Below the pieces are notes generated by a model. The model worked only from the letters and a program-made list of their open reading frames with translations, was not told where the DNA came from and searched no databases. Below, piece after piece: positions 5,513-23,997 of a stretch of DNA of 24,628 bases. A program made the position numbers and the translations under genes. Numbering within the stretch: the stretch's first letter is position 1; each line of letters starts with the position of its first letter. Location: the IMG/VR virus record IMGVR_UViG_3300025141_000710, positions 1 to 24,628 of that record, one strand, 5' to 3'. Source of the DNA: a virus.

Positions 5513-5746
5513 CTATGCGCCAGCCACAATTAATTCTATATCATAACAATAGTATTTGCGGGTGCCGCGGGCCTTTGAATCATAAACCACCACTTGTGGG
5601 AAGATTCTTAACTGCTCTCGTGACGGGGTGCACCCCAGCACAATCCCAATCGATTCATGGGGGCGCCCATCCCATTGAGAGGATTTAATTCGCACAAGAT
5701 CGCCCGGGAGCCATTCGCGAGATGTTATTTTTATTGATTTATTCAA
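5513..5746 (-). CDS. SH3-like GDLV-family protein, 77 aa
   Basis: Leftmost member of the large paralogous family in this window. The head is WLPGDLVRIKSSQ, the second strand IGIVLG, the third VVVYD, and the end YDIELIVAGA. The alternation of short hydrophobic strands with G turns resembles an SH3/KOW-type small beta-barrel; that fold is inferred. A 15-residue extension precedes the GDLV motif. The start is uncertain (TTG at 5746, no obvious SD in the AT-rich leader). Confidence 0.75.
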   Translation of the reverse strand: MNKSIKITSREWLPGDLVRIKSSQWDGRPHESIGIVLGCTPSREQLRIFPQVVVYDSKARGTRKYYCYDIELIVAGA

Positions 5747-5784
5747 GTCGTAAATTTTTTATATTTTTTTCTAAAAATTTTCCC

Positions 5785-6054
5785 TTAAGAGACATGCAGA
5801 TTATAAAACCCAACAAGTATCGAAAGTTTAAGGCCTTCCTCTTCCATCCAAATTGGATTGATAACTTGAGTCACATCCACAGCAGGGCCATCAGACCATT
5901 TCACGTGCCAAAAATAAATATCGTCATCAGTCATGGATATGCGACGGTCGCATGCCACCAATAAGCCGATTTGACCAGAAACAGTGTCGACAATCATATC
6001 GCCGATACTCAATGTAACATCTTTTACGTAATTACGCAAACTCTTGGGGAACAT
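5785..6054 (-). CDS. SH3-like GDLV-family protein, 89 aa
   Basis: A 16-residue N-terminal extension leads into LSIGDMIVDTVSGQIGLLV, followed by a WHVKWSDGPAVDV strand, the W-x-D-G signature of the family. The C-terminal 25 residues go beyond the core. The ATG at 6054 lies three nt after the upstream stop within the junction ATAGTTAGTATATG, with no Shine-Dalgarno sequence. Confidence 0.8.
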   Translation of the reverse strand: MFPKSLRNYVKDVTLSIGDMIVDTVSGQIGLLVACDRRISMTDDDIYFWHVKWSDGPAVDVTQVINPIWMEEEGLKLSILVGFYNLHVS

Positions 6055-6057
6055 ATA

Positions 6058-6294
6058 CTAACTATTTGCATACAAGAGCAAATAACCATCTTCAATCATA
6101 TTAATGATCCCGCTTTCGGTGTATATCGTGGCCCCCTCATGGAGCCAAAAAATCTCCCATACCCACAATTCAAACAATGTCTCGTAAGCAGGGCCGGACA
6201 TGGTGCCATCTGTGCGCGCGAGCAATATACCAATATCCTTGCCACGAGGATCATATACAATATCGCCCACACACAAACTAACTTGATTGCCCAC
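6058..6294 (-). CDS. SH3-like GDLV-family protein, 78 aa
   Basis: The head is CVGDIVYDPRGKDIGILLA and a long W-rich middle follows (ELWVWEIFWLHEGATIY). The start is GTG at 6294 in the junction CATAGTTAATATGTG; an overlapping ATG two bases earlier is in another frame and leads to an unrelated reading. It ends INMIEDGYLLLYANS with no ESR-type tail, consistent with its lack of a 14-nt overlap. Confidence 0.78.
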   Translation of the reverse strand: MGNQVSLCVGDIVYDPRGKDIGILLARTDGTMSGPAYETLFELWVWEIFWLHEGATIYTESGIINMIEDGYLLLYANS

Positions 6295-6309
6295 ATATTA
6301 ACTATGAGC

Positions 6310-6564
6310 TTAAATTTTTAGCCAACCTACTCGTTGCTTTTTGCATTGCTTGAGTTGTTCGACTATTGGCGCCTTTTCATCTTCTGTCTTACACAGGGTA
6401 GGCTGCATGAACTTATCAGACTGCTGTAAAGATACATAAGGTGCTAGCACCTCCCCGTACAAAGCTGGGGAAGGGATGCTCGCGCGCGGATCAGATAGCT
6501 GCAGATATGGTTGTATGCTTAGCATAGCTATAGTTGTCCCGGTAATTACAGCATGTTTAATCAT
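6310..6564 (-). CDS. Hypothetical protein with N-terminal hydrophobic segment, 84 aa
   Basis: A good ribosome site (AGGAG, 6 nt before ATG) supports the start. The N-terminus MIKHAVITGTTIAMLSI could be a short signal or anchor; the rest is hydrophilic with two cysteines and a lysine-rich end (QCKKQRVGWLKI). I do not recognise a family. It separates the SH3-like genes to its left from a helical protein to its right. Confidence 0.7.
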   Translation of the reverse strand: MIKHAVITGTTIAMLSIQPYLQLSDPRASIPSPALYGEVLAPYVSLQQSDKFMQPTLCKTEDEKAPIVEQLKQCKKQRVGWLKI

Positions 6565-6576
6565 GATTAACTCCTA

Positions 6577-6849
6577 TTAAGCTTTAAGCTTATCGATAAT
6601 AAAGGAATGGTGCAGCGACATATCCCTATAAAGTTGCTTGAGGATTTTCTTCGTGATATCCCCTAAATCTTGTTTCACCTTATTTTTGCCAATTAGCTTA
6701 ACTAGTTCATCTTCAATTAACTTTTTCGTATTACGCGATTTAAGTTGCTTCTCTATTTCTTTCGCTATTAGTTTTTTAATTTCCGCTTTATCTGATCTTG
6801 TAATTTCTTCATTAATCAGCTGCCGCAATTTGGTGGGGGTTACGTTCAT
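6577..6849 (-). CDS. Helical lysine-rich phage protein, 90 aa
   Basis: Almost all of it is predicted helix: MNVTPTKLRQLINEEITRSD, then alternating K/E heptad-like repeats and a C-terminal segment LKQLYRDMSLHHSFIIDKL. Small proteins with a leading LRQLINEE-type helix and a terminal LYRD..W/H..F/I..L segment occur in many marine myoviruses, function unknown. GAG about 10 nt upstream is a weak ribosome site. Confidence 0.75.
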   Translation of the reverse strand: MNVTPTKLRQLINEEITRSDKAEIKKLIAKEIEKQLKSRNTKKLIEDELVKLIGKNKVKQDLGDITKKILKQLYRDMSLHHSFIIDKLKA

Positions 6850-6863
6850 TATTTTATCTCACA

Positions 6864-7130
6864 CTAATAATTAGTTCTTTTATTTCCTTCTACCATCGAT
6901 ATATGTGATGAAACTGTCTCTGTTGTTTTATGCGTCTTAAACCAATACACACGATAAAGCCACGATCCCCTTAATCCAACCGTTGGCAATTCCTCAATGA
7001 TTATTCCAAGGGATCCCTCACGGTCATCGATATGATAGTAATCCGGACTATAATGGTAGCCCATGAACCTTACCAAATCACCGACTCTATATCTTGTTGG
7101 CACAACATCATAAGGAATATCAAACGGCAT
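6864..7130 (-). CDS. SH3-like GDLV-family protein, 88 aa
   Basis: A 15-residue extension precedes RVGDLVRFMGYHY; the following strands are SLGIIIEELP and LYRVYWFKTHK, ending SHISMVEGNKRTNY. The insert between strands 1 and 2 (YSPDYYHIDDREG) is longer than in the compact right-hand copies. The start follows the junction ATAGTTATAACAGAATG without a clear Shine-Dalgarno sequence. Confidence 0.8.
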   Translation of the reverse strand: MPFDIPYDVVPTRYRVGDLVRFMGYHYSPDYYHIDDREGSLGIIIEELPTVGLRGSWLYRVYWFKTHKTTETVSSHISMVEGNKRTNY

Positions 7131-7140
7131 TCTGTTATAA

Positions 7141-7392
7141 CTATTCTGGCCAATGTTCTCCGTACTTGTTTAATCGGCCGATTGTGTGCATCCATGATCT
7201 CTCTTGCTTCGTATACGCCGGGCTAATCCACCATATTTTTGCCATGTTCATTTTTATTTCCTCTCCGGTATCGTATAGCTCAACCACGATGGCCACGCCT
7301 CCATGGCACGTGCATGTGACTAAGTCGCCCACCTTGAGGTCGTGTGTAGGCGGTTGCTCGAAGAAGTCCTTCATTCTCTCCCAATAGCTCAC
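7141..7392 (-). CDS. SH3-like GDLV-family protein, 83 aa
   Basis: The head LKVGDLVTCTCHGG is followed by VAIVVELYD and AKIWWISPA. An 18-residue N-terminal extension with MSYWERMKDFFEQPP precedes it. I list the GTG at 7392; an ATG at 7374 just after GGGAG is an alternative with close SD spacing. It is the first gene after a 316-base intergenic region and so probably opens the leftward unit of region B. Confidence 0.75.
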   Translation of the reverse strand: MSYWERMKDFFEQPPTHDLKVGDLVTCTCHGGVAIVVELYDTGEEIKMNMAKIWWISPAYTKQERSWMHTIGRLNKYGEHWPE

Positions 7393-7503
7393 TCTATAAT
7401 TAGTTTGCTATTGGATTGCTATATCTCAAATTTTTAGGCGCAGATCGTGAACGACCTTAACCCACGTCAGAGAGCATGCACAATGCGCCGCGACATACAT
7501 CCC

Positions 7504-7521
7504 GGGTAGGGGGGAGGGGGG
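7504..7521 (+). other. G-rich tract
   Basis: Three guanine runs of 3, 6 and 6, separated by TA and A, lie on the plus strand. They could form a bulged or short-loop quadruplex, or act as a C-rich pause in leftward RNA. Its position next to the hexamer array is notable. Confidence 0.4.
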
Positions 7522-7529
7522 TGCCACCA

Positions 7530-7594
7530 CGTCAAATAAATGTCAAGCAACATGTCAAAAGAATGTCAAACAATACTGTCAACTCTTTGTCATA
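7530..7594 (-). repeat. Array of six TTGACA-like hexamers
   Basis: TTGACA-like hexamers (minus sense) start at plus positions 7530, 7541, 7553, 7564, 7577 and 7589, a spacing of 11, 12, 11, 13 and 12 bp. No TATATT-type -10 lies at 16-18 bp from any of them, unlike the promoter modules elsewhere. Confidence 0.7.
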
Positions 7595-7708
7595 TCCTTA
7601 CTGTAACATTTAATACCTTTATATAACACATAACTGTATACGTAAACAATCACTGGCGCATAGTACCCTATGATAAGCAGCTTAGAACCTACCTTATTTA
7701 ATAGTCTC

Positions 7709-8059
7709 TTAGCTCTCGGCAATCTCTGTGTCATCGTACAAGTCTGTGTCATTCATTAGTTTAATACTGTTTATTGTTTCAGTATTCTCGCGCATCCAAC
7801 GCGCTGCAATCGGAGGCACACTAACACGTCGACCGGTAACGTCGCACTTAGGCGCATTATCAAGCAGGCCATGAAGGATGAGCATGTCAACCGCTGCGTG
7901 TGCATCTGTCGTAAACAGTCTGCATTTGTGTGATAGTTCGTCTACGCTCCAGTCTGTCAACGTCGGCAGCCAACTGTCAATAAAATGTATTATATCAATC
8001 TCGGCCTTGTTTAGCTTGGCGGTCAGGTCGGGCGTTGCGATGGTGTGGATGGTTTCCAT
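7709..8059 (-). CDS. Winged-helix-like protein, 116 aa
   Basis: Residues 15-75 read as three helices plus a possible wing (KAEIDIIHFIDSWL, SVDELSHKCRL, DAHAAVDMLILHGLLD), typical of a winged helix-turn-helix; the fold is inferred by eye. The C-terminus is acidic. I choose the ATG at 8059; AAGGAG lies 11 nt upstream, and a GTG at 8086 is possible. It has its own consensus promoter and a long leader with palindromes, so it may be a self-regulating transcription factor for the repeated promoters. Confidence 0.72.
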   Translation of the reverse strand: METIHTIATPDLTAKLNKAEIDIIHFIDSWLPTLTDWSVDELSHKCRLFTTDAHAAVDMLILHGLLDNAPKCDVTGRRVSVPPIAARWMRENTETINSIKLMNDTDLYDDTEIAES

Positions 8060-8147
8060 ATATAGTGTGTCTCCTTTTAGATACACGGGGATTCGCTAAT
8101 GATTTGGGAAGGCAGACACTACGGGTAGTGTGCCGCATATAGTGTGT
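8057..8147 (-). repeat. Direct repeat CACACTATAT in a leader
   Basis: The sequence ACACACTATAT occurs twice on the minus strand, at 8060-8070 directly before the ATG and at 8137-8147 near the 5' end of the leader. This could be a protein-binding or RNA-pairing element of the winged-helix gene. Confidence 0.45.
8116..8131. promoter_or_regulatory. Perfect palindrome ACACTAC-GG-GTAGTGT
   Basis: A 7-bp perfect inverted repeat with a 2-bp centre lies in the transcribed leader of the winged-helix gene, about 36-50 nt after its predicted start. It could be an operator, or in RNA a 6-bp stem with a CCCG loop. Confidence 0.55.
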
Positions 8148-8173
8148 TGGGCCTCTTTTCACTCTATGCATAC

Positions 8174-8227
8174 ATTATACCACCGCATGCGGTCAATGTC
8201 AAGCGCACGATGTCAAGCGTTTGTCAG
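8174..8227 (-). promoter_or_regulatory. Consensus sigma70-type promoter with palindromic spacer
   Basis: The -10 TATAAT is at 8174-8179 and the -35 TTGACA at 8197-8202, a 17 bp spacing and a full consensus match. Further hexamers lie at 8211 and 8222 (14 and 11 bp steps), with another 11-bp pair at 8238 and 8249. The spacer contains the 12-bp palindrome ACCGCATGCGGT (8182-8193). Confidence 0.85.
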
Positions 8228-8428
8228 CATATGCAGATGTCAATTGATTGTCAAAAAGAAACTTGCAAGCCGGACACATTCTGACTTGACACGAATAAAA
8301 GGTTGACGATAGGGTGTGTGTGCATATACTAAACACCAAACACATTTAATACTAATACAAACACACCACTATCAAACAAGAACAAATACAATCACATAAG
8401 CGAGTACCCAACCACTACCTAAACACAC
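8206..8428. other. Intergenic region, no gene seen
   Basis: No gene on either strand. It carries hexamer repeats upstream of the winged-helix promoter, a possible plus-strand promoter (8286-8330), and an A/C-rich plus strand to 8428. An imperfect inverted repeat at about 8419-8449 (CTAaACACA facing TGTGTaTAG) sits at the stop of the gene ending at 8429 and could act in termination. Confidence 0.5.
8286..8330 (+). promoter_or_regulatory. Possible plus-strand promoter
   Basis: TTGACA (8286) and TTGACG (8303-8308) precede TATACT (8325-8330) with a 16 bp spacer, the only good rightward promoter noticed. No ORF follows on the plus strand, so it would make a noncoding or antisense RNA against the genes right of 8429. 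Confidence 0.35.
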
Positions 8429-8605
8429 TTATGAATGTTTTGTGTATAGATTGTTTATTACTACACATGCAACTGTCTGTAAAGTCTTTTTAGAGTTATT
8501 GTAAAGAGTGTAGTTGTCCTCGGACTTATCCACAACAATACACAACGCTCTTGATCGACCGTCTGATATTGTTTTTCTCTTTACTAACTCTCCAACCTCA
8601 AACAT
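8429..8605 (-). CDS. SH3-like GDLV-family protein, 58 aa
   Basis: A short gene that starts at the ATG of a TAATG junction. The head is MFEVGELVKRKTISDG, followed by RALCIVVDK and DNYTLYN, ending VVINNLYTKHS. It is the last gene of its unit and has no ESR tail, as expected for a copy without a downstream partner. The third strand lacks the usual tryptophan. Confidence 0.72.
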   Translation of the reverse strand: MFEVGELVKRKTISDGRSRALCIVVDKSEDNYTLYNNSKKTLQTVACVVINNLYTKHS

Positions 8606-10098: not shown

Positions 10099-10241
10099 TA
10101 GCACAAACTTTCAAGCAGTACCATCGTTGTGAAACTCCAGACGTTGAATCTCCACATGAGCGCACACCAAGGGTTAGCATCCATGACTTCGCTCCAGCTT
10201 CCGAGTCGAGTACCGCCGATCATGATGTTCTCGATCTTCAC
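10095..10241 (-). CDS. Hypothetical protein, 48 aa
   Basis: The GTG start overlaps the previous stop as GTGA, and AAGGTGG encoded in the previous gene provides a ribosome site. The sequence is rich in W, M and L (NPWCALMWRFNVWSF), suggesting a membrane-associated or small hydrophobic domain. Its TGA is part of the CTGACA hexamer of the next promoter, the same arrangement as in unit-final genes elsewhere. Confidence 0.6.
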   Translation of the reverse strand: MKIENIMIGGTRLGSWSEVMDANPWCALMWRFNVWSFTTMVLLESLCY

Positions 10242-10414
10242 GCTACCACCTTCAAGTCCACAACAGAGCAAAAGCCGCTTGTTTGAGTTGAAGCCCAGAA
10301 CACGCGGGCGATCTTGCCGTCTGCTAACATGCTGATAACAAGCCCGTGGTTTGAGTTGCTGCGGCCTTGGATGAATCCCACGTTAGTCACGATGCTACCG
10401 ATCTCGATGGTCAT
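10238..10414 (-). CDS. SH3-like GDLV-family protein, 58 aa
   Basis: A divergent copy: the head is MTIEIGSIVTNVGF, then HGLVISML and ARVFWASTQ, ending DLKVVA. It is the first gene after its promoter, with GGAGAAAACT before the ATG. The family proline/aspartate positions are partly lost but strand order and length are kept. Confidence 0.72.
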   Translation of the reverse strand: MTIEIGSIVTNVGFIQGRSNSNHGLVISMLADGKIARVFWASTQTSGFCSVVDLKVVA

Positions 10415-10433: not shown

Positions 10434-10574
10434 CTATAATATAATCCCCTCGGAGGTCTTCGTCAAGGTCTGAGTTGTCAAGGGAATGTCAACAACGAGG
10501 TTAATCGTCGTCGGGTCGAACACGGTGCCAGATCCCGGCTTTGACATGATGGCTAAAAAAGCTAATAGTTTCAT
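10434..10574 (-). CDS. Possible small protein reading through a promoter, 46 aa
   Basis: An ORF with a hydrophobic start (MKLLAFLAIMS) follows the 147-residue gene by 4 nt. Its second half is the translation of the next promoter module (VVDIPLTTQ, then TLTKTSEGIIL), ending in the -10. No clear ribosome site. It may be real and simply overlap the promoter, or be a chance ORF. Confidence 0.35.
   Translation of the reverse strand: MKLLAFLAIMSKPGSGTVFDPTTINLVVDIPLTTQTLTKTSEGIIL
10438..10492 (-). promoter_or_regulatory. Repeated promoter module (unit at 10414)
   Basis: -10 TATATT 10438-10443, 17 bp, -35 TTGACG 10461-10466, then TTGACA at 10476 and TTGACA at 10487. Leader carries GAAAGGAG. Confidence 0.85.
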
Positions 10575-11476: not shown

Positions 11477-11531
11477 AATATAACGCCGAAAGCGGTGATC
11501 GTCAAGGTTTAAGTTGTCAAGGACATGTCAA
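11477..11531 (-). promoter_or_regulatory. Repeated promoter module (unit at 11455)
   Basis: -10 TATATT 11477-11482, 17 bp, -35 TTGACG 11500-11505, then TTGACA at 11515 and TTGACA at 11526. The TAA of the upstream unit lies just after the middle hexamer. Confidence 0.85.
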
Positions 11532-11721
11532 CAAGTCTAAGGTGATCACTTTTCTGTGTGATCGCGTAGGGTGCTGCGGCACCCGGACCCATCCACAAAA
11601 CTTTAACGTCGGCGTTGCCTGTGTACTTGCCTGTTTCAACAACCAGACCCACATCGACCGATTGACCTTTTCGCCATCGTGCAGCTTGGAAGGCATATGT
11701 CACCAGATCACCGACTTTCAT
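11509..11721 (-). CDS. SH3-like GDLV-family protein, 70 aa
   Basis: Starts at ATG 11721 inside the last 14 nt of the SWIM-finger gene. The head is MKVGDLVTYAFQAARW, then VGLVVETG and VKVLWMGPG, ending HLRLVDMSLTT; the last residues are encoded by the promoter hexamers of the next unit. A longer upstream reading is excluded by the coupling. Confidence 0.82.
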   Translation of the reverse strand: MKVGDLVTYAFQAARWRKGQSVDVGLVVETGKYTGNADVKVLWMGPGAAAPYAITQKSDHLRLVDMSLTT

Positions 11722-12239: not shown

Positions 12240-12294
12240 AATATAGTCACTCAGGGCCATATCGTCAAGGCTTAAAATGTCAAGAGGATGTAAA
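12240..12294 (-). promoter_or_regulatory. Repeated promoter module (unit at 12215)
   Basis: -10 TATATT 12240-12245, 17 bp, -35 TTGACG 12263-12268, then TTGACA at 12278 (holding the upstream TGA stop) and TTTACA at 12289. Confidence 0.85.
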
Positions 12295-12483
12295 GTGTTC
12301 CAAGAACATTTCGTGAAACTTTAAGTGTATATCGGTGCCGAGAAAGACGACCGTGTAAGCCTCGGTGTAGTTTCCAGAAGCCTCGCCGCGCTCGATGACC
12401 ATGCCGACCCGATGATCGGGGATCTCAGCCGCATGGGTTCCATCGCGGATCTTGACCAGATCACCGGGCTTAAACTTTCTCAT
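12280..12483 (-). CDS. SH3-like GDLV-family protein, 67 aa
   Basis: The head is MRKFKPGDLVKIRDG, then VGMVIERG and YTVVFLG, ending EHFTSS at a TGA inside the middle hexamer of the next promoter. The ATG lies 1 nt beyond the previous stop (TGAGATG). It closes the unit of the metallopeptidase/vWA protein. Confidence 0.8.
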   Translation of the reverse strand: MRKFKPGDLVKIRDGTHAAEIPDHRVGMVIERGEASGNYTEAYTVVFLGTDIHLKFHEMFLEHFTSS

Positions 12484-14119: not shown

Positions 14120-14174
14120 AATATAGTCACTTAAAGGCTATCAGTCAAGGTTTTTTGTGTTAAGGAAATGTAAA
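14120..14174 (-). promoter_or_regulatory. Repeated promoter module (unit at 14098)
   Basis: -10 TATATT 14120-14125, 17 bp, -35 TTGACT 14143-14148, then TTAACA at 14158 and TTTACA at 14169. The upstream hexamers are the least consensus of the set. Confidence 0.8.
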
Positions 14175-14371
14175 GGAAGTTTATACTGCATCCTTAATCG
14201 AACCTCGTCCAGCCACCCCTGATCTCCTTCAATGTGCAACTTAAACCTGAGTCTTTTGTTTGCCACATCCCCGTATCTGGAGCGCGCTGTTTCTTCTTTG
14301 TCAAGAACGATAGCAGGCTTCCCATCGAGGTCATAAAGCAGATCACCCACCTTCAACTTGTCGGTCCACAT
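14141..14371 (-). CDS. SH3-like GDLV-family protein, 76 aa
   Basis: The head DKLKVGDLLYDLDGK is followed by PAIVLDKEE and LRFKLHIEGDQGWLDEVRL. The end (LPLHFLNTKNLD) is encoded by the next promoter's hexamers. The start is uncertain: ATG at 14371, or a TTG six codons later directly before KVGDLL, as in the compact copies; both lie inside the previous gene's end. Confidence 0.75.
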   Translation of the reverse strand: MWTDKLKVGDLLYDLDGKPAIVLDKEETARSRYGDVANKRLRFKLHIEGDQGWLDEVRLRMQYKLPLHFLNTKNLD

Positions 14372-14597
14372 CCGAGACAATGATCAAATCCTCCTCATGG
14401 AAGCGCATGCGCTCCTCACTTTTTAACCACTTGACTTCGTACAACTTTCTGGCGTGTTCAGGCTTGTGGATTTGGGTCACGATACCAACACCGTGAACCC
14501 TTGCGTACTGTCGGCCCATCCCGCCGGGACCGGAGAGTTTAACGATGTCTCCGATCATCGGCGGTCTAAGCGGCGGTCGCCTGACGCTACTATGCAT
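14343..14597 (-). CDS. SH3-like GDLV-family protein, 84 aa
   Basis: ATG at 14597 overlaps the MoxR stop by 8 nt (ATGCATAG) after a GGTGGGGG run. A proline-rich lead (RRPPLRPP) precedes MIGDIVKLSGPGG; then VGIVTQIH and YEVKWLKSE, ending LIIVSDVDRQVEGG. Coupling to the ATPase suggests co-production, not necessarily a shared function. Confidence 0.78.
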   Translation of the reverse strand: MHSSVRRPPLRPPMIGDIVKLSGPGGMGRQYARVHGVGIVTQIHKPEHARKLYEVKWLKSEERMRFHEEDLIIVSDVDRQVEGG

Positions 14598-16786: not shown

Positions 16787-16841
16787 AATATAGCACCGGA
16801 TGGGGCGCTTGTCAAGGTTTGAGTTGTCAAGCAGTTGTCAA
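16787..16841 (-). promoter_or_regulatory. Repeated promoter module (zinc-knuckle unit)
   Basis: -10 TATATT 16787-16792, 17 bp, -35 TTGACA 16810-16815, then TTGACA at 16825 (holding the upstream TGA) and TTGACA at 16836: all three hexamers are perfect. Confidence 0.87.
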
Positions 16842-17015
16842 GTGATCTAAGCCACTTTCACCGCACCACTCTTTAGATCCGGGACCGAACAAGGAATGTC
16901 CTTGCGTAGTCCATAGCACACGATAACTAACGCCATCACAGCGAGAAGCCTTCTTGTCAATAATCATGCCGATCTGATCGGTCAGAAAATGTTTAACCAA
17001 ATCACCGACTTGCAC
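16827..17015 (-). CDS. SH3-like GDLV-family protein, 62 aa
   Basis: GTG start at 17015 in a 14-nt overlap. The head is MQVGDLVKHFLTD, then IGMIIDKKA and YRVLWTTQG, ending LDHLTTA, which is hexamer-encoded. The extra cysteines (RCDG, EWCGE) are unusual for the family. Confidence 0.82.
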   Translation of the reverse strand: MQVGDLVKHFLTDQIGMIIDKKASRCDGVSYRVLWTTQGHSLFGPGSKEWCGESGLDHLTTA

Positions 17016-17172
17016 TAAGCACCTCCAACAATAGACCAGACTCGATCTTGGGCTTGCGTTCATCTGTCCACATCACCCACACATCGGCAGGCTTTGCCCA
17101 TCGCTTTTTGCAAGCGCCCAAAACAAGACCAACCGATCCTCTCCACGTTACTAATGTTCCTGTTTTAAGCAT
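17002..17172 (-). CDS. SH3-like GDLV-family protein, 56 aa
   Basis: First gene of its unit (GGGAGAGAT before ATG). A divergent head MLKTGTLVTWRG, then VGLVLGACK and VWVMWTDERK, ending LEVLSASR through the overlap. G-T-L replaces G-D-L; the rest fits the family. Confidence 0.8.
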   Translation of the reverse strand: MLKTGTLVTWRGSVGLVLGACKKRWAKPADVWVMWTDERKPKIESGLLLEVLSASR

Positions 17173-17191: not shown

Positions 17192-17245
17192 AATATAACA
17201 CCCATACAGGCAAAGTCAATCAAAGTTGTGTCAGGAGAATGTCAA
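17192..17245 (-). promoter_or_regulatory. Repeated promoter module (unit at 17172)
   Basis: -10 TATATT 17192-17197, 16 bp, -35 TTGACT 17214-17219, then CTGACA at 17229 and TTGACA at 17240, the last containing the upstream TGA stop. Confidence 0.82.
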
Positions 17246-17418
17246 GAAGTATTTATAATCGACAACCATTTGATAGGCTCCCACGATGACTCAGCATCCT
17301 CGATCCAATATACTTGCACGCGATCCGTCTGTAAATGTCCTCTTGGCTTTGTTCGCAAAACAATACCCGTAGTTGGTTCAATAGAACCGGGCATGTGTAC
17401 CAGATCACCGACTTGCAT
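17242..17418 (-). CDS. SH3-like GDLV-family protein, 58 aa
   Basis: The head is MQVGDLVHMPGS, then TGIVLRTKP and VQVYWIEDAESSWEPI, ending LSIINTS at a TGA within a promoter hexamer. It starts inside the previous gene's end (14 nt) and, as last gene, lacks the ASR/ESR tail. Confidence 0.82.
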   Translation of the reverse strand: MQVGDLVHMPGSIEPTTGIVLRTKPRGHLQTDRVQVYWIEDAESSWEPIKWLSIINTS

Positions 17419-17590
17419 TGATCACCATTAAGTTTCGATCACTAATGATCTCGGATTTACCATCGGACCATTGAACCAGCCACCAAGCGACAGGAACACT
17501 ATCCATTCCAGTGTTCTTGACAACGATACCGACAAGGGCCGAAAGGTTAAACATATTGCGCCTGTACTTTACCAGATCACCGACTTGCAT
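17405..17590 (-). CDS. SH3-like GDLV-family protein, 61 aa
   Basis: The head is MQVGDLVKYRRNM, then VGIVVKNTG and WWLVQWSDGKSEII, ending LMVINASR. W-S-D-G is the family's commonest third-strand motif. Overlaps of 14 nt occur at both ends. The head MQV (GCAAGTCGG) is shared with its two nearest downstream neighbours, so recent local duplication is likely. Confidence 0.85.
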   Translation of the reverse strand: MQVGDLVKYRRNMFNLSALVGIVVKNTGMDSVPVAWWLVQWSDGKSEIISDRNLMVINASR

Positions 17591-17744
17591 TTAATACCTC
17601 CAAGTGTTGCCGTTGAAAGCAACACATACGATTGTTGTGTGTCAGTATGACACCCCACAAACCGGACACCTTGAAGAACTCAACAATGATGCCCGTAGCA
17701 CCATCGCTCACCGTCCGACATTTAACTAAATCACCAACTTTCAT
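17577..17744 (-). CDS. SH3-like GDLV-family protein, 55 aa, leaderless
   Basis: The head is MKVGDLVKCRTVSDG, then TGIIVEFFK and WGVILTHNN, ending HLEVLNASR. The ATG lies 6 nt after the -10 hexamer, so the predicted transcript starts at or next to the A of ATG and has no ribosome site. Its end encodes the SD (GGAGGT) and start of the next gene. Confidence 0.8.
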   Translation of the reverse strand: MKVGDLVKCRTVSDGATGIIVEFFKVSGLWGVILTHNNRMCCFQRQHLEVLNASR

Positions 17745-17750: not shown

Positions 17751-17805
17751 AATATAACACAGGGGAATGGGGTTTGCAAGGGTGATCGTGTCAGGAGAAT
17801 GTCAA
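17751..17805 (-). promoter_or_regulatory. Repeated promoter module, leaderless type
   Basis: -10 TATATT 17751-17756, 17 bp, -35 TTGCAA 17774-17779 (poor), then CTGACA at 17789 and TTGACA at 17800. ATG at 17744. Confidence 0.82.
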
Positions 17806-17954
17806 GAAGCATTTACTAACTGCATGTATTCGATGGCTACTTTGTTGCCATTGTGAAGTTTAACGAACCTGCCGGTTTCCTTTCTGCCCCACACCTCCAC
17901 GATGATGCTGTGATTTCTATGGTATCTGTCATATACCAGATCACCGACTTTCAT
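17802..17954 (-). CDS. SH3-like GDLV-family protein, 50 aa
   Basis: The smallest copy. The head is MKVGDLVYDRYHR, then SIIVEVWGR and GRFVKLHNGNK, ending MQLVNAS, with TGA in a promoter hexamer. ATGA overlap with the preceding gene. N-G replaces D-G in the third-strand turn. Confidence 0.78.
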   Translation of the reverse strand: MKVGDLVYDRYHRNHSIIVEVWGRKETGRFVKLHNGNKVAIEYMQLVNAS

Positions 17955-18145
17955 GCTTCCACCTTCATTAGATCATATTCCCACATTCGTTCGCTAATGC
18001 CGCCACAAGTCCACCGCACCCTGAATACATCGTTGTCGGCAGTGCTTGTCTTGCCGCTGACCTCTGCCAAGATAATACCAAGCAAGGGATTTTCCGGCTC
18101 CACCTCACGCAAATACACAGCTTTCACCAAATCACCGACTTTCAT
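17951..18145 (-). CDS. SH3-like GDLV-family protein, 64 aa
   Basis: The head is MKVGDLVKAVYLRE, then LGIILAEVSG and FRVRWTCGGISE, ending YDLMKVEA. Joined to both neighbours by 4-nt ATGA overlaps instead of 14-nt ones, so it ends without an ESR tail although it is not last in its unit. Confidence 0.83.
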   Translation of the reverse strand: MKVGDLVKAVYLREVEPENPLLGIILAEVSGKTSTADNDVFRVRWTCGGISERMWEYDLMKVEA

Positions 18146-18306
18146 ACGCTCACCAAAACTTTAACGTCACTTTCAGCCGCTAAGATATTGCGTGGATGGT
18201 TCTGCGGTTTGACATGAACCCCGTCCTTATCAACATCAACAACGACACCCAGCTTTTCGCCGTAGTGCTTTGTTCGCACTCTTACTAAATCTCCAACTTT
18301 AGGCAT
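18142..18306 (-). CDS. SH3-like GDLV-family protein, 54 aa
   Basis: First gene of its unit, with GGAGAAAAT before ATG. The head is MPKVGDLVRVRTKHYG, then LGVVVDVDK and VHVKPQNHP, ending VKVLVSV. The extra proline after M may reflect a start not constrained by an upstream overlapping gene. Confidence 0.8.
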   Translation of the reverse strand: MPKVGDLVRVRTKHYGEKLGVVVDVDKDGVHVKPQNHPRNILAAESDVKVLVSV

Positions 18307-18325: not shown

Positions 18326-18380
18326 AATATAAGACCGCGAAGCGGTTACGGCAAGTTTTTTCTTGTCAAGAAGGTGTCAA
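18326..18380 (-). promoter_or_regulatory. Repeated promoter module (unit at 18306)
   Basis: -10 TATATT 18326-18331, 17 bp, -35 TTGCCG 18349-18354 (poor), then TTGACA at 18364 (holding the upstream TGA) and TTGACA at 18375. Confidence 0.82.
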
Positions 18381-18578
18381 GGGATCTAACATCTTTAAGA
18401 ATGAGCGATCCGTGATTCGCCTTTCACCTCCCAATATAAACGCATGGTTTACGATGGTCACGCCATCGGATCGATTGATAATATCTTCACCCAAGTATAA
18501 CGCAGGTTTGCCCTTCCACTCGCTAAACGTGTGATGTGTGCCTCGCTTGCTCAAAATGTATAACTCACCCACTTTCAC
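18366..18578 (-). CDS. SH3-like GDLV-family protein, 70 aa
   Basis: GTG start at 18578 in a 14-nt overlap. A divergent head MKVGELYILSKRG; a central KGKPALYLGED replaces the G-I-V strand, and the end is RSFLKMLDPLTPS. The longer middle (TIVNHAFILGGERR) suggests a diverged loop. Confidence 0.78.
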   Translation of the reverse strand: MKVGELYILSKRGTHHTFSEWKGKPALYLGEDIINRSDGVTIVNHAFILGGERRITDRSFLKMLDPLTPS

Positions 18579-18732
18579 TGACTGTCTCCAAGTGTTTGTG
18601 GTGGACGTACTTTGTTTGACCGTCAGGCCACAGAACGCCGATAAGCGCCTTCGCTGTGTTGTGGGTTGCCACCACAAGCCTCGGATCGTGCCACAGCCCA
18701 CGCGCAGATACCACCAAATCACCGACCTTCAC
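18565..18732 (-). CDS. SH3-like GDLV-family protein, 55 aa
   Basis: GTG start in a 14-nt overlap. The head is MKVGDLVVSARG, then PRLVVATHN and IGVLWPDGQTKYV, ending LETVSESG. The usual last R is G because the next gene reads GTGAAAGTGGGTGA, which directly illustrates that the tail is dictated by the next start. Confidence 0.82.
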   Translation of the reverse strand: MKVGDLVVSARGLWHDPRLVVATHNTAKALIGVLWPDGQTKYVHHKHLETVSESG

Positions 18733-18910
18733 TAACCACCTCTAACCAACTCTCGGGTTCCCACTCGACTTTACCGGGCTTCGGAAGCCACATAATGCCG
18801 ATCTGAACGGACTTGTGCAACTCGCTCGGATGAACATTGACCACAAGACCAACAAGCCCTGTGTCATAGTGCTTCATTCTCACCAGATCGCCGGTTCTAA
18901 CCCTGCTCAC
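18719..18910 (-). CDS. SH3-like GDLV-family protein, 63 aa
   Basis: GTG start. The head is MSRVRTGDLVRMKHYD, two residues longer than usual before G-D-L; then VGLVVNVHP and IGIMWLPKPGK, ending WLEVVSEGR. Overlaps of 14 nt at both ends. Confidence 0.82.
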   Translation of the reverse strand: MSRVRTGDLVRMKHYDTGLVGLVVNVHPSELHKSVQIGIMWLPKPGKVEWEPESWLEVVSEGR

Positions 18911-19097
18911 TGACTACCTCCAAAGTACACGTTGAATGGTTTGAATAGTCGGTCCATCGGGTCGTCCACAGTACCTCTACTTCTTCGGGATCTCCGATTT
19001 CTTCTGGATCGATACATGTAACGAGTCCCAATGGGCGATCACCGAACTGACCGGCTGAACCCCAAGCTGCGATTGTTACCAGAGCGCCGACTTTCAT
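18897..19097 (-). CDS. SH3-like GDLV-family protein, 66 aa
   Basis: The head is MKVGALVTIAAWG (D replaced by A), then LGLVTCIDP and VEVLWTTRWTDY, ending LEVVSEQG. It starts by an ATGA overlap with the non-family gene upstream and ends in a 14-nt overlap. Confidence 0.8.
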   Translation of the reverse strand: MKVGALVTIAAWGSAGQFGDRPLGLVTCIDPEEIGDPEEVEVLWTTRWTDYSNHSTCTLEVVSEQG

Positions 19098-20112: not shown

Positions 20113-20587
20113 GAGGTTTTTGATAGTGGAGAGTTCCCAACGAACCATACTTATCAACAAACTTCTTCACCTTGAGTGGTGACTTTGATTGACGACCGGG
20201 GTACATTTGTTTTTTCTTATACTCATCAGCAAGATTGTCTGCTGTCCAGCCATCCTTGGTGTATTCATCATCACTCAACAAGGTATCAATCATATCACCA
20301 AGAGCGATTGACCACACGTACTCAACTGCACCTTTTTTGTGAACTAAAAATGTCATAAGGATCTGCCGATCATCTTCGGATAGATCGTGATACTTCCACA
20401 CATCAAACCATTGTTGATTTGCTTGCTTTTTAAGTTCAATCTTTCGTCTTGTAGAGCGATTAACAAAGTCATACAACGATGCGCTAACCCGCTCCCAACC
20501 TTCACTCAAAACAGTTAAGAACAGCTTTTCGGAGCCGCCTTTGCCTCCGACATTGATCTTTCCAAGAAGTTTCTTATCCAGCCGCAC
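20102..20587 (-). CDS. Hypothetical basic protein, 161 aa
   Basis: GTG start at 20587 inside a 14-nt overlap with an SH3-like gene, with GAGGTGATC upstream. The N-terminus is basic (MRLDKKLLGKINVGGKGG); the middle has helices with W residues (NQQWFDVWKYHDLSEDDR), the end is lysine-rich. No family recognised. Its stop lies in the next promoter's distal hexamer region. Confidence 0.8.
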   Translation of the reverse strand: MRLDKKLLGKINVGGKGGSEKLFLTVLSEGWERVSASLYDFVNRSTRRKIELKKQANQQWFDVWKYHDLSEDDRQILMTFLVHKKGAVEYVWSIALGDMIDTLLSDDEYTKDGWTADNLADEYKKKQMYPGRQSKSPLKVKKFVDKYGSLGTLHYQKPLDI

Positions 20588-20747
20588 TGATCACCTCACA
20601 TTCATCATCGTATCCGTCAACAATCTGACCTTCTTGTGTACGCACAAACACTTTTTCGGGATAGGTGCGGGAATCCTTTTCAACAAGGATTCCGATCACA
20701 TACCACTCTGCGTTTACCCAAAGTTTTACCAAATCACCAATCTGCAT
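20574..20747 (-). CDS. SH3-like GDLV-family protein, 57 aa
   Basis: First gene of its unit (AGGAGAAATC before ATG). The head is MQIGDLVKLWVNAEW, then IGILVEKDS and KVFVRTQEGQIV, ending CEVISAAG. The end encodes the GTG start of a non-family gene, showing that the overlap cassette can carry other proteins. Confidence 0.8.
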   Translation of the reverse strand: MQIGDLVKLWVNAEWYVIGILVEKDSRTYPEKVFVRTQEGQIVDGYDDECEVISAAG

Positions 20748-20766
20748 GATTTCTCCTTACACTTAT

Positions 20767-20821
20767 AATATAGCACCCGAGAGTACAACTGTCAACCTCT
20801 AAGTTGTCAACTAATCGTCAA
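20767..20821 (-). promoter_or_regulatory. Repeated promoter module (unit at 20747)
   Basis: -10 TATATT 20767-20772, 17 bp, -35 TTGACA 20790-20795, then TTGACA at 20805 and TTGACG at 20816. Confidence 0.85.
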
Positions 20822-21155: not shown

Positions 21156-21172
21156 TCTTGCTTCCTTTTGTT

Positions 21173-21457
21173 TCACTTCACAAACTTCAAATCGTTGCGG
21201 AGAAAATAGCCTTGATTCCTTGCTCGGTATCCGGCACTTCCCCATCGGCTTGCTGGTCCGTAGTCCTGCATCCAGTTGATGTAATAAAACTGCTTTTCAT
21301 TCTTGGATGTCCAGCTATGCCCGTAGGGGTTTTCCTCTACTCGCACCACCAACCCCAACAAAGGTTTTTTGTGCTTCCATACTAAATCTCTGACTTTCCA
21401 CATCGGTTCAGACTGCATGGCATACGCCGACAATGTTACCAAATCACCTGCTTTCAT
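21173..21457 (-). CDS. SH3-like GDLV-family protein, 94 aa
   Basis: The longest copy. The head is MKAGDLVTLSAYAM; a second V-R-D-L-V near residue 22 is followed by LLGLVVRVEE and FYYINWMQDYGP, ending LRNDLKFVK. The insert between head and second strand makes it possible that the real core begins at the internal VRDLV. 14-nt overlap with the preceding gene. Confidence 0.8.
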   Translation of the reverse strand: MKAGDLVTLSAYAMQSEPMWKVRDLVWKHKKPLLGLVVRVEENPYGHSWTSKNEKQFYYINWMQDYGPASRWGSAGYRARNQGYFLRNDLKFVK

Positions 21458-21611
21458 TTATAACCTCCACGCTCTCTCTCATTTCATCATCAAGATAGCA
21501 CAACTTTTGTGTGGCAAAAAAGAAAATGGTTGCGCCACACCAGCGAATGTCAACATCCGTAACAATCCCATTTCCATAATAATCATCATAAACCAAATCA
21601 CCGACTTTCAT
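21444..21611 (-). CDS. SH3-like GDLV-family protein, 55 aa
   Basis: The head is MKVGDLVYDDYYGNG, then VDIRWCGATIFFF, ending SVEVINESR. The G-I-V strand is shortened (GNGIVTDVD). Overlaps of 14 nt on both sides; the GGAGGTTAT before the next start is encoded in its V-E-V-I. Confidence 0.82.
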   Translation of the reverse strand: MKVGDLVYDDYYGNGIVTDVDIRWCGATIFFFATQKLCYLDDEMRESVEVINESR

Positions 21612-21768
21612 TGATGGCCTCCAAGTTTTCTGCCCTGAATGACACAGGCTGGTTGAGCAAGTGATACCAAGCCCCCGGACGATTTTCGCCTGTTTGACAG
21701 ACCTCAACCTCTACAACGAGCGTCACGACGCCATTATATTTAATCTTTACCAGATCACCGACTCTCAT
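21598..21768 (-). CDS. SH3-like GDLV-family protein, 56 aa
   Basis: The head is MRVGDLVKIKYNG, then VVTLVVEVEV and AWYHLLNQP, ending NLEAINESR. ATG overlaps the stop of the basic 45-residue gene (ATGA). A longer upstream reading in the same frame is excluded by that gene. Confidence 0.8.
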   Translation of the reverse strand: MRVGDLVKIKYNGVVTLVVEVEVCQTGENRPGAWYHLLNQPVSFRAENLEAINESR

Positions 21769-21902
21769 ACACGCACCCTTCCTCGGCATGCCTTCTTGTT
21801 CGCTGCCTTCTTGCGATCCTTCATCGCTCCAGCGCGACGAAAGTGCGCGGAGACTGCAATCCAGTTGCGGCGCTTCGGGGTCATGGCTTTTTTCTTCTTC
21901 AT
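21765..21902 (-). CDS. Small basic phage protein, 45 aa, leaderless
   Basis: The start MKKKKAMTPKRRNW lies 6 nt from the -10, so the mRNA is predicted leaderless. About 40 percent of residues are K or R, with a motif NWIAVSAHF, KDRKKAANKKACRGRV near the C-terminus. It resembles in style the short RNPVAKH...DRKKA..RG proteins found in many phages; relationship unproved. Nucleic-acid or ribosome binding is likely from charge alone. Confidence 0.72.
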   Translation of the reverse strand: MKKKKAMTPKRRNWIAVSAHFRRAGAMKDRKKAANKKACRGRVRV

Positions 21903-21908
21903 ACATAT

Positions 21909-21963
21909 AATATAGCACCGAAAGCGCCGATGGTCAAGGGTTATGATGTAAAGAGCTTGTCAA
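21909..21963 (-). promoter_or_regulatory. Repeated promoter module, leaderless type
   Basis: -10 TATATT 21909-21914, 17 bp, -35 TTGACC 21932-21937 (holding the upstream TGA), then TTTACA at 21947 and TTGACA at 21958. ATG at 21902. Confidence 0.83.
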
Positions 21964-22155
21964 GTACATCACATCATCGTTTCTTTCGTTGACCATATAC
22001 CTGCCCCCGTCACACCAAACAATCCAGATCATATCTCGCCAGCCGCCGCCTTGTCGGTCGTCGTTTATGAAGCCACCGATCACGATGCTCGGATTAGACC
22101 AGTCATCATCACCGAACGATTTTGGCTTGAACGATATGAGATCACCGATTCTCAC
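21934..22155 (-). CDS. SH3-like GDLV-family protein, 73 aa
   Basis: GTG start. The head is MRIGDLISFKPKSFG, then PSIVIGGF and WIVWCDGGRYMV, ending YLTSSLHHNP, where the last 12 residues are encoded by promoter hexamers and the stop is TGA of the -35. It closes the nine-gene array. Confidence 0.8.
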   Translation of the reverse strand: MRIGDLISFKPKSFGDDDWSNPSIVIGGFINDDRQGGGWRDMIWIVWCDGGRYMVNERNDDVMYLTSSLHHNP

Positions 22156-22315
22156 TTAGCACCTTCAAGTTCGCGATCATCGGGTTAGAAATCTCGCCTG
22201 TATCCAGGTAGACTATTTTAACGACGTTTAGGTATTCTGGCACTTCGACCACAATAGCTTTCCTAAACTTATTCTTGCACCACTTTTCAATCTCGACCAG
22301 ATCACCGACTTTCAC
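22142..22315 (-). CDS. SH3-like GDLV-family protein, 57 aa
   Basis: GTG start at 22315. The head is MKVGDLVEIEKWCKN, then KAIVVEVPE and VVKIVYLDTGEI, ending LKVLSENR. The tail reads SENR because the next head codes for MRIGD. Overlaps of 14 nt at both ends. Confidence 0.8.
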   Translation of the reverse strand: MKVGDLVEIEKWCKNKFRKAIVVEVPEYLNVVKIVYLDTGEISNPMIANLKVLSENR

Positions 22316-22511
22316 TTAGCACCTCCACTATCTCGCGCAAGTGTCCAACACGAAACAACGCTGGATTTTGTGTGTTGCCTCGGGTTGCATGCCAGTTGTG
22401 AATGTGTACCCACACCGAAGATGATGTACCGTTCCAATGATCGTGACCCTTTGCTATAATAGTACCTATACATCCTTTCTTCTTGAACCTTACAAGATCA
22501 CCGACCTTCAT
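22302..22511 (-). CDS. SH3-like GDLV-family protein, 69 aa
   Basis: The head is MKVGDLVRFKKKG, then IGTIIAKGHD and SVWVHIHNW, ending VEVLSESR. A His-rich middle (GHDHWNG, HIHNWH) is unusual and might bind metal. Overlaps of 14 nt at both ends. Confidence 0.83.
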   Translation of the reverse strand: MKVGDLVRFKKKGCIGTIIAKGHDHWNGTSSSVWVHIHNWHATRGNTQNPALFRVGHLREIVEVLSESR

Positions 22512-22662
22512 TGAGAACCCTTATAAAATCACCGTGCATCAATATCTTTTTCCCGTCAAGCATAATGTGATAGAACGCCTGACTCTCCACGGAAACAATG
22601 ATTGCAGCACCCTTGAATGAGGATGGCTGGTGGTCAACCCACACCAAGTCACCGACTTTCAC
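22498..22662 (-). CDS. SH3-like GDLV-family protein, 54 aa
   Basis: GTG start at 22662. The head is MKVGDLVWVDHQPS, then AAIIVSVES and YHIMLDGKKI, ending IRVLNEGR. Compact copy with the D-G turn kept and no tryptophan in strand three. Confidence 0.8.
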   Translation of the reverse strand: MKVGDLVWVDHQPSSFKGAAIIVSVESQAFYHIMLDGKKILMHGDFIRVLNEGR

Positions 22663-22843
22663 TGATCACCTCAATGTAGCCAATAGGATACCATTGTTCT
22701 TGTCCCATCTCCACAACTTTAACTAACCCCAAGCCGTTTGGGTGATTCTCGCTCCTGTTGACATGCAACACAATGCTGATAAACCCTTCGCCGGGTAGCG
22801 GGCGCACGTTGTATGATACTCTGACCAGATCACCGACCTTCAT
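22649..22843 (-). CDS. SH3-like GDLV-family protein, 64 aa
   Basis: The head is MKVGDLVRVSYNVRP, then ISIVLHVNR and LVKVVEMGQEQWYPI, ending YIEVISESR. Overlaps of 14 nt at both ends. Confidence 0.83.
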   Translation of the reverse strand: MKVGDLVRVSYNVRPLPGEGFISIVLHVNRSENHPNGLGLVKVVEMGQEQWYPIGYIEVISESR

Positions 22844-23021
22844 TGACTAACTCCAGATTGTATACATCTTCCCATGTGTACCACGGACCACGCCACATTA
22901 TCTTATAGTAACAGTCCTCCCATCCTTTAGATTCGCCCTGATGCTGCACGATCAGCCCAACACCTTGAGTATTTTCATCGCCTGTGTCGTGCTTGAGTCT
23001 TACAAGTTCACCGACTTTCAC
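22830..23021 (-). CDS. SH3-like GDLV-family protein, 63 aa
   Basis: GTG start. The head is MKVGELVRLKHDTGD, then VGLIVQHQG and YKIMWRGPWYTWEDV, ending LELVNEGR. Particularly W/Y-rich third strand. Overlaps of 14 nt at both ends. Confidence 0.83.
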   Translation of the reverse strand: MKVGELVRLKHDTGDENTQGVGLIVQHQGESKGWEDCYYKIMWRGPWYTWEDVYNLELVNEGR

Positions 23022-23190
23022 TTAGGACCACCAACACTTTCAAAAACTCAAGCGAAACGTCGCCATCAAACCACTGCACTCTGCACACGTTGTCACCGTG
23101 ATCGATGCGCGTTTCTATGGGTGCAGTTTCTATGATGATGCCGTGGTAGCCATCATCGTGAACATTCCTAACCAAGTCACCTACTTTCAT
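23008..23190 (-). CDS. SH3-like GDLV-family protein, 60 aa
   Basis: The head is MKVGDLVRNVHDDG, then HGIIIETAP and CRVQWFDGDVSLEF, ending LVVLSESR. Canonical length and motif order. Overlaps of 14 nt at both ends. Confidence 0.85.
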   Translation of the reverse strand: MKVGDLVRNVHDDGYHGIIIETAPIETRIDHGDNVCRVQWFDGDVSLEFLKVLVVLSESR

Positions 23191-23371
23191 TTATCACCAC
23201 CAATCTTTGAGTGCCGACCCACCAAGTCTCGCCATCGCTAAACAGCACTTGTGCTGACTCTGTGTTGTGTCCTGTCTTGGACATTTTAACCACCAAACCA
23301 AGTTCTGAGCTATACCGATCCATGTCGTCGGTCAGTGCGCTTTCAAACTTTACCAGATCACCGACTTTCAT
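23177..23371 (-). CDS. SH3-like GDLV-family protein, 64 aa
   Basis: The head is MKVGDLVKFESALTD, then LGLVVKMSK and AQVLFSDGETWWV, ending RLVVINESR. Canonical copy. Overlaps of 14 nt at both ends. Confidence 0.85.
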   Translation of the reverse strand: MKVGDLVKFESALTDDMDRYSSELGLVVKMSKTGHNTESAQVLFSDGETWWVGTQRLVVINESR

Positions 23372-23513
23372 TTTTCAGCCTCACACTTTGCTCCATCATT
23401 GGTGCAGCCTCATCATGCCACATAACCATCACATCGTATCCGACACCAAAGGTGCCAACATCAATGACAATACCCCGTGAGCCACGAAAAGATACTAAAT
23501 CTCCAATCTTCAT
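23358..23513 (-). CDS. SH3-like GDLV-family protein, 51 aa, leaderless
   Basis: The head is MKIGDLVSFRGSR, then GIVIDVGT and DVMVMWHDEA, ending SVRLKNESR. ATG at 23513 is 6 nt from the -10; a longer reading upstream is translated promoter. It opens an array of nine consecutive family members. Confidence 0.82.
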   Translation of the reverse strand: MKIGDLVSFRGSRGIVIDVGTFGVGYDVMVMWHDEAAPMMEQSVRLKNESR

Positions 23514-23519
23514 ATATAT

Positions 23520-23574
23520 AATATAGCACCCAAACAGGTGCAAGTCAACTTCTAAGTTGTCAAGTGGTTGTTAA
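23520..23574 (-). promoter_or_regulatory. Repeated promoter module, leaderless type
   Basis: -10 TATATT 23520-23525, 17 bp, -35 TTGACT 23543-23548, then TTGACA at 23558 and TTAACA at 23569. ATG at 23513. Confidence 0.84.
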
Positions 23575-23579
23575 GTGCG

Positions 23580-23786
23580 TTAAACTTTTCCAGGCTGCCC
23601 GCTTGGGCTAACAACTTTTAGACTTGTGCGCGGCCACCATCCGATAGGGTTGTTCTCTGATGACCACAGGATTCTACATTCGATCCCTTTAGTCTCGGTC
23701 ACCAATCCAACGCAAGAAATGTCGCGTTCCTCATCGTAGAGCGCGACAACCAGATCACCGATGCTTGGCGCTCCGCTATCCTTCAT
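23580..23786 (-). CDS. SH3-like GDLV-family protein, 68 aa
   Basis: ATG at 23786 overlaps the previous stop by 11 nt. A lead MKDSGAPSIGDLVVALYD, then VGLVTETKG and CRILWSSENN, ending LKVVSPSGQPGKV. As last gene before a promoter it lacks the ESR tail. Confidence 0.8.
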   Translation of the reverse strand: MKDSGAPSIGDLVVALYDEERDISCVGLVTETKGIECRILWSSENNPIGWWPRTSLKVVSPSGQPGKV

Positions 23787-23997
23787 CAATAGGCACCAAG
23801 TCTGTGAGTGGAAACGCAATCTTGTTGCCGTTGATCAGCACAACCGCATGCGGCTCGGGATCAACCTTCCCCCAATCGATCTTATTGCCCAATACATCTG
23901 TGCGCCAGCACTTCTTTTCAATCAGATCAACAATAAGCCCAGCGCGGAATGATGCTCCGTGCGAGGACGAAAGTTTAACTAAGTCACCTACTTTCAT
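23776..23997 (-). CDS. SH3-like GDLV-family protein, 73 aa
   Basis: The head is MKVGDLVKLSSSHG, then AGLIVDLIE and HAVVLINGNKIAF, ending LVPIDEG. It starts in a 14-nt overlap with a non-family gene; the long upstream reading in the same frame overlaps that gene and is not used. Confidence 0.82.
   Translation of the reverse strand: MKVGDLVKLSSSHGASFRAGLIVDLIEKKCWRTDVLGNKIDWGKVDPEPHAVVLINGNKIAFPLTDLVPIDEG

Follow-up and report, generated by a model that had tools for sequence, protein, structure and literature searches.

An array of small SH3-like genes joined by a fixed coding overlap in a probable T4-like marine phage

The viral record IMGVR_UViG_3300025141_000710, which we analysed over its whole length of 24,628 bases (the window), carries an array of small genes that begin with a shared MKVGD-type head. 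A six-frame scan of the window detected 38 such genes (g01 to g38; Table 1), all on the minus strand within 5513-23997 and encoding proteins of 50-94 amino acids (aa), with five copies in 5513-7392 (region B) and 33 to the right of position 8400. The scan reproduced exactly the count given in an earlier reading of the DNA letters (the original prediction), which had proposed a rapidly duplicating, phage-encoded family of SH3/KOW-type proteins.

At 16 junctions between family members of the window, the next gene starts exactly 14 nucleotides (nt) before the previous one ends. Here GTGAAAGTCGGTGAT provides the start codon and MKVGD of the next gene and also the ESR-stop of the previous gene; put generally, (A/G)TGAAAGTCGGTGAT reads start-K-V-G-D in one frame and E-S-R-stop in another. 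The ribosome-binding site sits in the last codons of the previous gene: the logo of 567 distinct junctions begins at TTGGAGGT, where the ribosome-binding site also codes for L-E-V of the preceding protein, continues across the start codon and finishes at AAAGTCGGTGATCTGGT. Head and ESR tail are therefore partly a DNA feature dictated by the 14-nt overlap, besides being conserved as protein. In the 134 loci of other viral contigs in which we found relatives, the exact -14 overlap was present in 630 of about 840 tandem junctions. As most of these loci had been retrieved by the DNA pattern of the head, which could bias the count, we repeated it on 26 loci retrieved via an unrelated VWA gene. Copies were present in 25 of them, all on one strand, and 71 of 99 tandem junctions (72%) again lay at -14, so we rejected ascertainment by the head pattern as the source of the joint. 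GGAG or GAGG was found upstream of 83% of the -14 starts, compared with 41% of the starts that follow a gap of at least 20 nt. Similarly, 62% of the genes with a tandem successor end in an ESR-type tail, against 10% of other genes, and the tail also occurs in two open reading frames (ORFs) outside the family that precede cassettes (23984-24220 and 11708-12025). Since the tail tracks the following cassette even on these ORFs, it belongs to the downstream start, that is, to the joint. The joint is a fixed coding sequence of about 36 nt that closes one gene, supplies the ribosome-binding site, opens the next gene and codes for the first strand of the barrel.

The array genes were also related beyond their ends. 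In leave-one-out (LOO) scoring, in which each copy was compared with a profile made from the other 37 window copies, 33 of the 38 scored above 15 bits; by sequence alone g19, g29, g32, g33 and g37 were weak (2.8-13.3 bits). When the head was deleted, 37 of the 38 bodies outscored 95% of their own shuffles (the g01 body failed) and 22 outscored all 200, indicating that the family is more than a shared head. At E<=1e-3 we collected 1382 relatives in the 134 loci, with no reversed decoy at that level, and 1346 members fell into 797 clusters at 50% identity. The strong divergence within one family described in the original prediction was thus borne out by the profiles, by the body-only shuffles and by two matching predicted structures.

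These structures are AlphaFold2 models of g04, made with 99 relatives, and of g37, a divergent region-B copy. The g04 model (pLDDT 87) has predicted strands at residues 6-9, 24-33, 37-44, 49-53 and 57-61 in an SH3-like order, and g37 was predicted to have the same five-strand order, with a core pLDDT of 84-89 and a poorly modelled C-terminal part. Five strands with a short helical turn ahead of the last one were taken as the mark of an SH3-like small beta-barrel, and the predicted structures show it (g04, with g37 matching in strand order). Foldseek searches of g04 against the PDB listed PetP, the KOW-like domain of eS4, HspQ, HERC2, YorP and PWWP; the first five matched at probability 1.00 with E-values of 0.0027 and above, and with this best E-value the resemblance is at the level of the fold only. 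Structural neighbours of g37 were domain I of EF-P, HspQ, Tudor and PWWP domains (E 0.12 and above). In BFVD the closest models belonged to small phage proteins, most of them without a name; several had adjacent accession numbers. The top matches of the family profile were likewise SH3-like (DNMT3B PWWP at 1e-3, NusG KOW at 4e-3 and a designed SH3), and the profile also reached uL24 and chromo/Tudor-like sequences. By model and Foldseek the array thus shares a five-strand barrel with the KOW, Tudor, PWWP, PetP, HspQ and YorP families, with weak profile matches. Unlike these named families, the array copies lack a known ligand surface, and when ten of the window copies were scanned, none passed the gathering score of any Pfam family, be it KOW (PF00467) or another named SH3-like family. 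Among 100 members compared with Pfam, single members matched differing SH3-like models, CarD_TRCF_RID being the best at 1.1e-5 (cut-offs not listed). Altogether, the evidence supports one divergent family predicted to form an SH3/KOW-like small barrel, as originally proposed.

With the fold in view, we weighed the possibility that the head is a mere DNA junction placed on unrelated small proteins. Although head and tail are partly set by the overlap and 16 bodies fail to beat all their shuffles, nearly all bodies outscore 95% of their shuffles on their own, genes that lack the joint have the same head and fold, and g04 is modelled as a confident barrel; this explanation is largely refuted and hardly credible to us.

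Across the family, conservation is confined to the head, the core of the strands, a single G, a single W and the tail that the overlap encodes. Net charge has a median of 0 and ranges from -8 to +6 (5-95%), with 19% of members at -5 or lower. As it is not uniformly negative, we rejected DNA mimicry; the neutral median, together with the lack of a conserved surface outside head, core and tail, argues against one common ligand. The same data bear on two explanations that assume a shared job. In the first, the proteins would be KOW/Tudor-type binders of nucleic acid or RNA polymerase that remodel the host nucleoid or transcription, with the copies giving dose or sequence range. The profile matches to NusG KOW, uL24, PWWP and chromo/Tudor-like sequences point this way, as does MotB of T4, an early accessory protein from the same phage group that binds DNA and has a predicted N-terminal KOW-like domain (PMC7827196). 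MotB resembles the array as a probably early accessory product with an SH3-like domain, but it is a single gene with two domains, conserved in T-even phages, and does not form a cassette array. Given the charge distribution and the absence of the conserved basic or aromatic surface that a shared nucleic-acid role would need, we consider this explanation unlikely. In the second, the proteins might serve a host AAA+ protease as adaptors, or inhibit it, in the manner of HspQ and Lon, redirecting the degradation of host proteins. HspQ (5ycq) is a structural neighbour of both models, but the match is one of fold only (14-20% identity) and a common docking surface, which should be conserved, is not seen, making this role very doubtful. 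We also rejected a parallel with sponges of the Acb4 type, since Acb4 is dsRBM-like and not SH3 (PMC11722364).

Comparison between loci revealed that cassettes change their neighbours. Cassette order in the window differed from that in loci L069, L009, L016, L092 and L095: the order g04-g01-g02 is found in L009, L011, L092 and L095, where the window has g01-g02, a promoter and then g03-g04, and in L069 g20 lies before g17 and g26 before g22. We assembled a breakpoint set of locus pairs that have a cassette in common and differ in the next one (142 pairs, 49 lineages). Identity stayed at 0.80-0.81 as far as the joint, rose to 0.92 within the 14-nt overlap and fell to 0.26-0.30 past it, and the upstream side of the breakpoints mirrored this drop (116 pairs). 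In 138 of 145 cases the differing neighbours had no detectable protein match. The next neighbour was unrelated in 34 of 37 cases at 85-90% cassette identity and in 25 of 116 at 95-100%, and two phages sharing a cassette at about 80% identity almost always had unrelated neighbours. In addition, we found nine distinct clean insertions or deletions, each of one to four whole cassettes between conserved neighbours. Taken together, the comparative breakpoints suggest that recombination takes place at the joint.

Duplication within a genome contributes little to this turnover. Only four recent within-locus copy pairs were found among the 1346 members, and tandem duplication was rejected as the main driver. 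The rapid duplication claimed in the original prediction was therefore not upheld; copies in the same genome are anciently diverged, and the turnover consists of whole-cassette exchange between phages. Nor did positive selection, for which a test was proposed there, find support, as the ratio of nonsynonymous to synonymous substitution rates (dN/dS) of the bodies was 0.18 over 74 orthologous pairs and exceeded 1 in only one of 72, indicating genes maintained by purifying selection. These values also bear on the idea that the array is a recombination by-product or selfish gene bank, whose homologous ends spread cassettes without much gain for the phage. Gene order does turn over much faster than substitutions accumulate; against this, purifying selection on the bodies is strong, start sites, ribosome-binding sites and promoters are kept, and 10-32 copies were present in each of the 40 carrier records searched, so that we regard a selfish bank as rather improbable.

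The promoters were found as 16 near-identical blocks of the form TTGAC-N17-TATATTAT in the window, on the same strand as the genes; the TTGAC-N17-TATATTATA blocks are preceded by further TTGACA-like motifs. Across 32 loci we counted 93 such promoters, compared with one in shuffled DNA. The blocks look like early promoters for host sigma-70, which would place expression early. A stem-loop lies in the promoter spacer at three window blocks (at about 23541, 21932 and 18346) and not at all of them. TTGACA-like repeats also cluster at 7550-7640, at 8200-8290 and upstream of each promoter block, with a spacing of about 11-15 nt, and some of them overlap the stop of the gene in front. The repeats may be regulator sites.

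Regarding the carriers, Gp23, the major capsid protein of T4-like phages, was found in 23 of 28 carrier records, in agreement with the proposed phage origin, and the density of one family singled out as unusual holds for both the window and the carriers. No capsid gene was seen in the window, a 24.6-kb fragment. The carriers are uncultured, mostly T4-like marine phages, and the array probably sits in the accessory part of a large phage of this kind, a part that is probably expressed early. The nearest named relative by Gp23 is Microcystis phage Mel-JY01 (37% identity), whose full record gave no match to the family profile at E<1. When the consensus and three natural sequences of the family served as tblastn queries on 50,697 named phage records, matches were absent or attributable to chance. 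We rejected two arrays as clues to the host: one in a WOR-3 'chromosome' (L122/L141), which has a T4-like terminase nearby and flanking runs of N, and one on a contig of a Deltaproteobacteria metagenome-assembled genome (MAG; L121), which may also be phage. In L141 (WOR-3 MAG CP070664) the position of array and terminase between N runs indicates a probable scaffolding error that joined a phage contig. MopE-type Cys-rich repeats (PF11617) were detected in 15 of 29 carrier records searched (14 viral and 1 MAG: G002, G003, G007, G009, G010, G013, G014, G018, G021, G023-G027 and G029). Such repeats are common in myxococcal and deltaproteobacterial proteins, and their presence weakly hints at hosts from these groups.

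While the anatomy of the array is close to certain, its purpose is not. We somewhat favour, as a combined statement, a shuffled and probably early-expressed repertoire of binders of one fold directed at variable host targets. The host-interaction role put forward in the original prediction is plausible. The joint would offer the recombination machinery of the phage a short stretch of homology, allowing any cassette to be added or removed in frame with its neighbours unharmed. Ribosomes that terminate at the TGA, which lies 11 nt downstream of the next start, may re-initiate, in which case the products of an operon would be made in coupled amounts. The barrel could serve as a constant scaffold with variable surface loops, each cassette binding a different target of the host or of a rival element, e.g., a component of defence, transcription or proteolysis, and each phage would hold a selection, suited to its hosts, from a common gene pool. 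More tentatively, and with rather less confidence than an even chance, we propose an integrase-free system in which overlapping reading frames are the exchange site and homologous recombination assembles 10-40 binders of one fold from a very large shared pool into a combinatorial arsenal against hosts.

Several observations weigh against this interpretation. A gap of at least 20 nt separates 399 of 1239 neighbouring pairs, and the solitary copies and the five region-B copies bear the family signature without the joint. Conservation of the joint would itself extend apparent homology up to the joint, a point that cannot explain the unrelated neighbours past it, and the neighbour-change figures cover cassette pairs only. 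Within lineages, the dN/dS of orthologues does not point to an arms race in progress, and we infer function, binding partners and expression timing alike.

The closest precedent is promoter stem-loop (PeSL) shuffling of accessory genes, described for T4-type phages (Arbiol 2010; Comeau 2014; as summarised in PMC4503421). Both concern T4-like phages with short repeated motifs beside shuffled accessory genes, and in the array a repeated sigma-70-type promoter heads each operon; the 16 window blocks thus correspond to the repeated, presumably early-type promoters beside shuffled genes. The promoter-coupled stem-loop of PeSL has a possible counterpart in the spacers of three window blocks. The PeSL border is an intergenic regulatory cassette between unrelated genes. 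In contrast, the borders of shuffled cassettes in the array fall mainly within overlapping coding sequence rather than between genes, and all cassettes have one fold. Integron arrays, too, consist of small and mostly uncharacterised cassettes that can be interchanged and have constant ends, whereas here the joint is coding, every cassette has the same fold and recombination is presumably homologous. By inspection, the junction logo contains no attC-like GTTRRRY core, and no integrase was detected among the ten larger window proteins scanned, the remaining ORFs and the carrier genomes not having been searched for one. The ORFanage of cyanophage S-PM2, a T4-like marine phage, also lines up small unknown genes, with rarely conserved synteny (PMC4503421), but it contains no match to the family profile at E<1. 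In the literature we found neither MKVGDLV or a matching description nor an array of one fold with its border in overlapping frames; subscription journals and most preprints lay outside coverage, so 'undescribed', a term used tentatively in the original prediction, applies to the named phages and openly accessible literature searched. Within this scope, the coding joint and the one-fold array appear to be new. If our interpretation is correct, they represent a new solution to gene shuffling in which about 36 nt serve at once as gene end, next start, ribosome-binding site and recombination border, so that cassettes would be inserted or lost automatically in frame and expressed. They would also provide a searchable signature for hundreds of protein lineages in uncultured marine phages and could yield compact natural binders and candidates for anti-defence proteins.

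Table 1. Array genes, an example joint and promoter blocks of the window (LOO, leave-one-out score in bits).
Feature	Position	Strand	LOO	Remark
g01	23776..23997	-	21.0	SH3-like cassette, 73 aa; start inside preceding ORF 23984-24220, 14-nt overlap
g02	23580..23786	-	24.6	cassette; 11-nt overlap with g01
g03	23358..23513	-	25.2	cassette, first of operon
g04	23177..23371	-	34.6	cassette; modelled, pLDDT 87, predicted SH3-like barrel
g05	23008..23190	-	32.8	cassette
g06	22830..23021	-	34.5	cassette
g07	22649..22843	-	22.4	cassette
g08	22498..22662	-	23.6	cassette
g09	22302..22511	-	26.8	cassette
g10	22142..22315	-	22.8	cassette
g11	21934..22155	-	17.5	cassette, last of operon
g12	21598..21768	-	26.5	cassette
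g13	21444..21611	-	26.3	cassette
g14	21173..21457	-	17.0	cassette, 94 aa
g15	20574..20747	-	18.1	cassette
g16	18897..19097	-	19.4	cassette
g17	18719..18910	-	40.7	cassette
g18	18565..18732	-	30.4	cassette
g19	18366..18578	-	2.8	cassette, weakest sequence evidence; 3/200 shuffles equal it; carries 14-nt joint
g20	18142..18306	-	22.4	cassette
g21	17951..18145	-	25.8	cassette, 4-nt overlap
g22	17802..17954	-	22.8	cassette, 4-nt overlap
g23	17577..17744	-	28.9	cassette
g24	17405..17590	-	29.0	cassette
g25	17242..17418	-	31.9	cassette
g26	17002..17172	-	21.5	cassette
g27	16827..17015	-	24.4	cassette
g28	14343..14558	-	25.6	copy, start codon uncertain
g29	14141..14380	-	9.5	copy, start codon uncertain
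g30	12280..12483	-	16.2	solitary copy
g31	11509..11721	-	30.5	solitary copy; 14-nt overlap with non-family ORF 11708-12025
g32	10238..10414	-	6.8	solitary copy
g33	8429..8605	-	13.3	solitary copy
g34	7141..7392	-	23.8	region-B copy, N-terminal extension
g35	6864..7130	-	25.2	region-B copy
g36	6058..6294	-	16.7	region-B copy
g37	5785..6054	-	10.2	region-B copy; modelled, predicted SH3-like strand order, core pLDDT 84-89
g38	5513..5746	-	17.2	region-B copy, no joint
Example joint	23352..23384	-		g03 last codons, g04 start, MKVGD head holding g03 TGA stop; junction logo
Promoter block before g03	23520..23548	-		TTGAC-N17-TATATT; GC stem-loop in spacer
Promoter block before g12 operon	21909..21937	-		sequence
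Promoter block before g15	20767..20795	-		sequence
Promoter block before g20	18326..18354	-		sequence
Promoter block before g23	17751..17779	-		sequence
Promoter block before g26	17192..17219	-		sequence
Promoter block before g32	10438..10466	-		sequence

Other features of the window lie around the array. GC content is 39-45% to the left of 9 kb (1-9000) and 44-54% to the right (9000-24628); as the region-B copies, which have no joint, fall where GC is lower, the left and right parts may be of different origin. The proteins encoded at 3485-5287 look secreted: one ORF (4232-5287) resembles a VWA lipoprotein and has a DTSGSM motif, and after it comes a trypsin-like peptidase (Trypsin_2, 2.3e-12). 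At 12848-15675, g28 and g29 lie between the genes of a MoxR-type AAA ATPase and a DUF2201/VWA-like protein, and similar stretches are present in related loci. The VWA family there (phrog_1314) is labelled 'HNH endonuclease' in PHROGs, in conflict with Pfam. Finally, genes for tRNA-Met and tRNA-Lys are located at 19469-19633, between two segments of the array.

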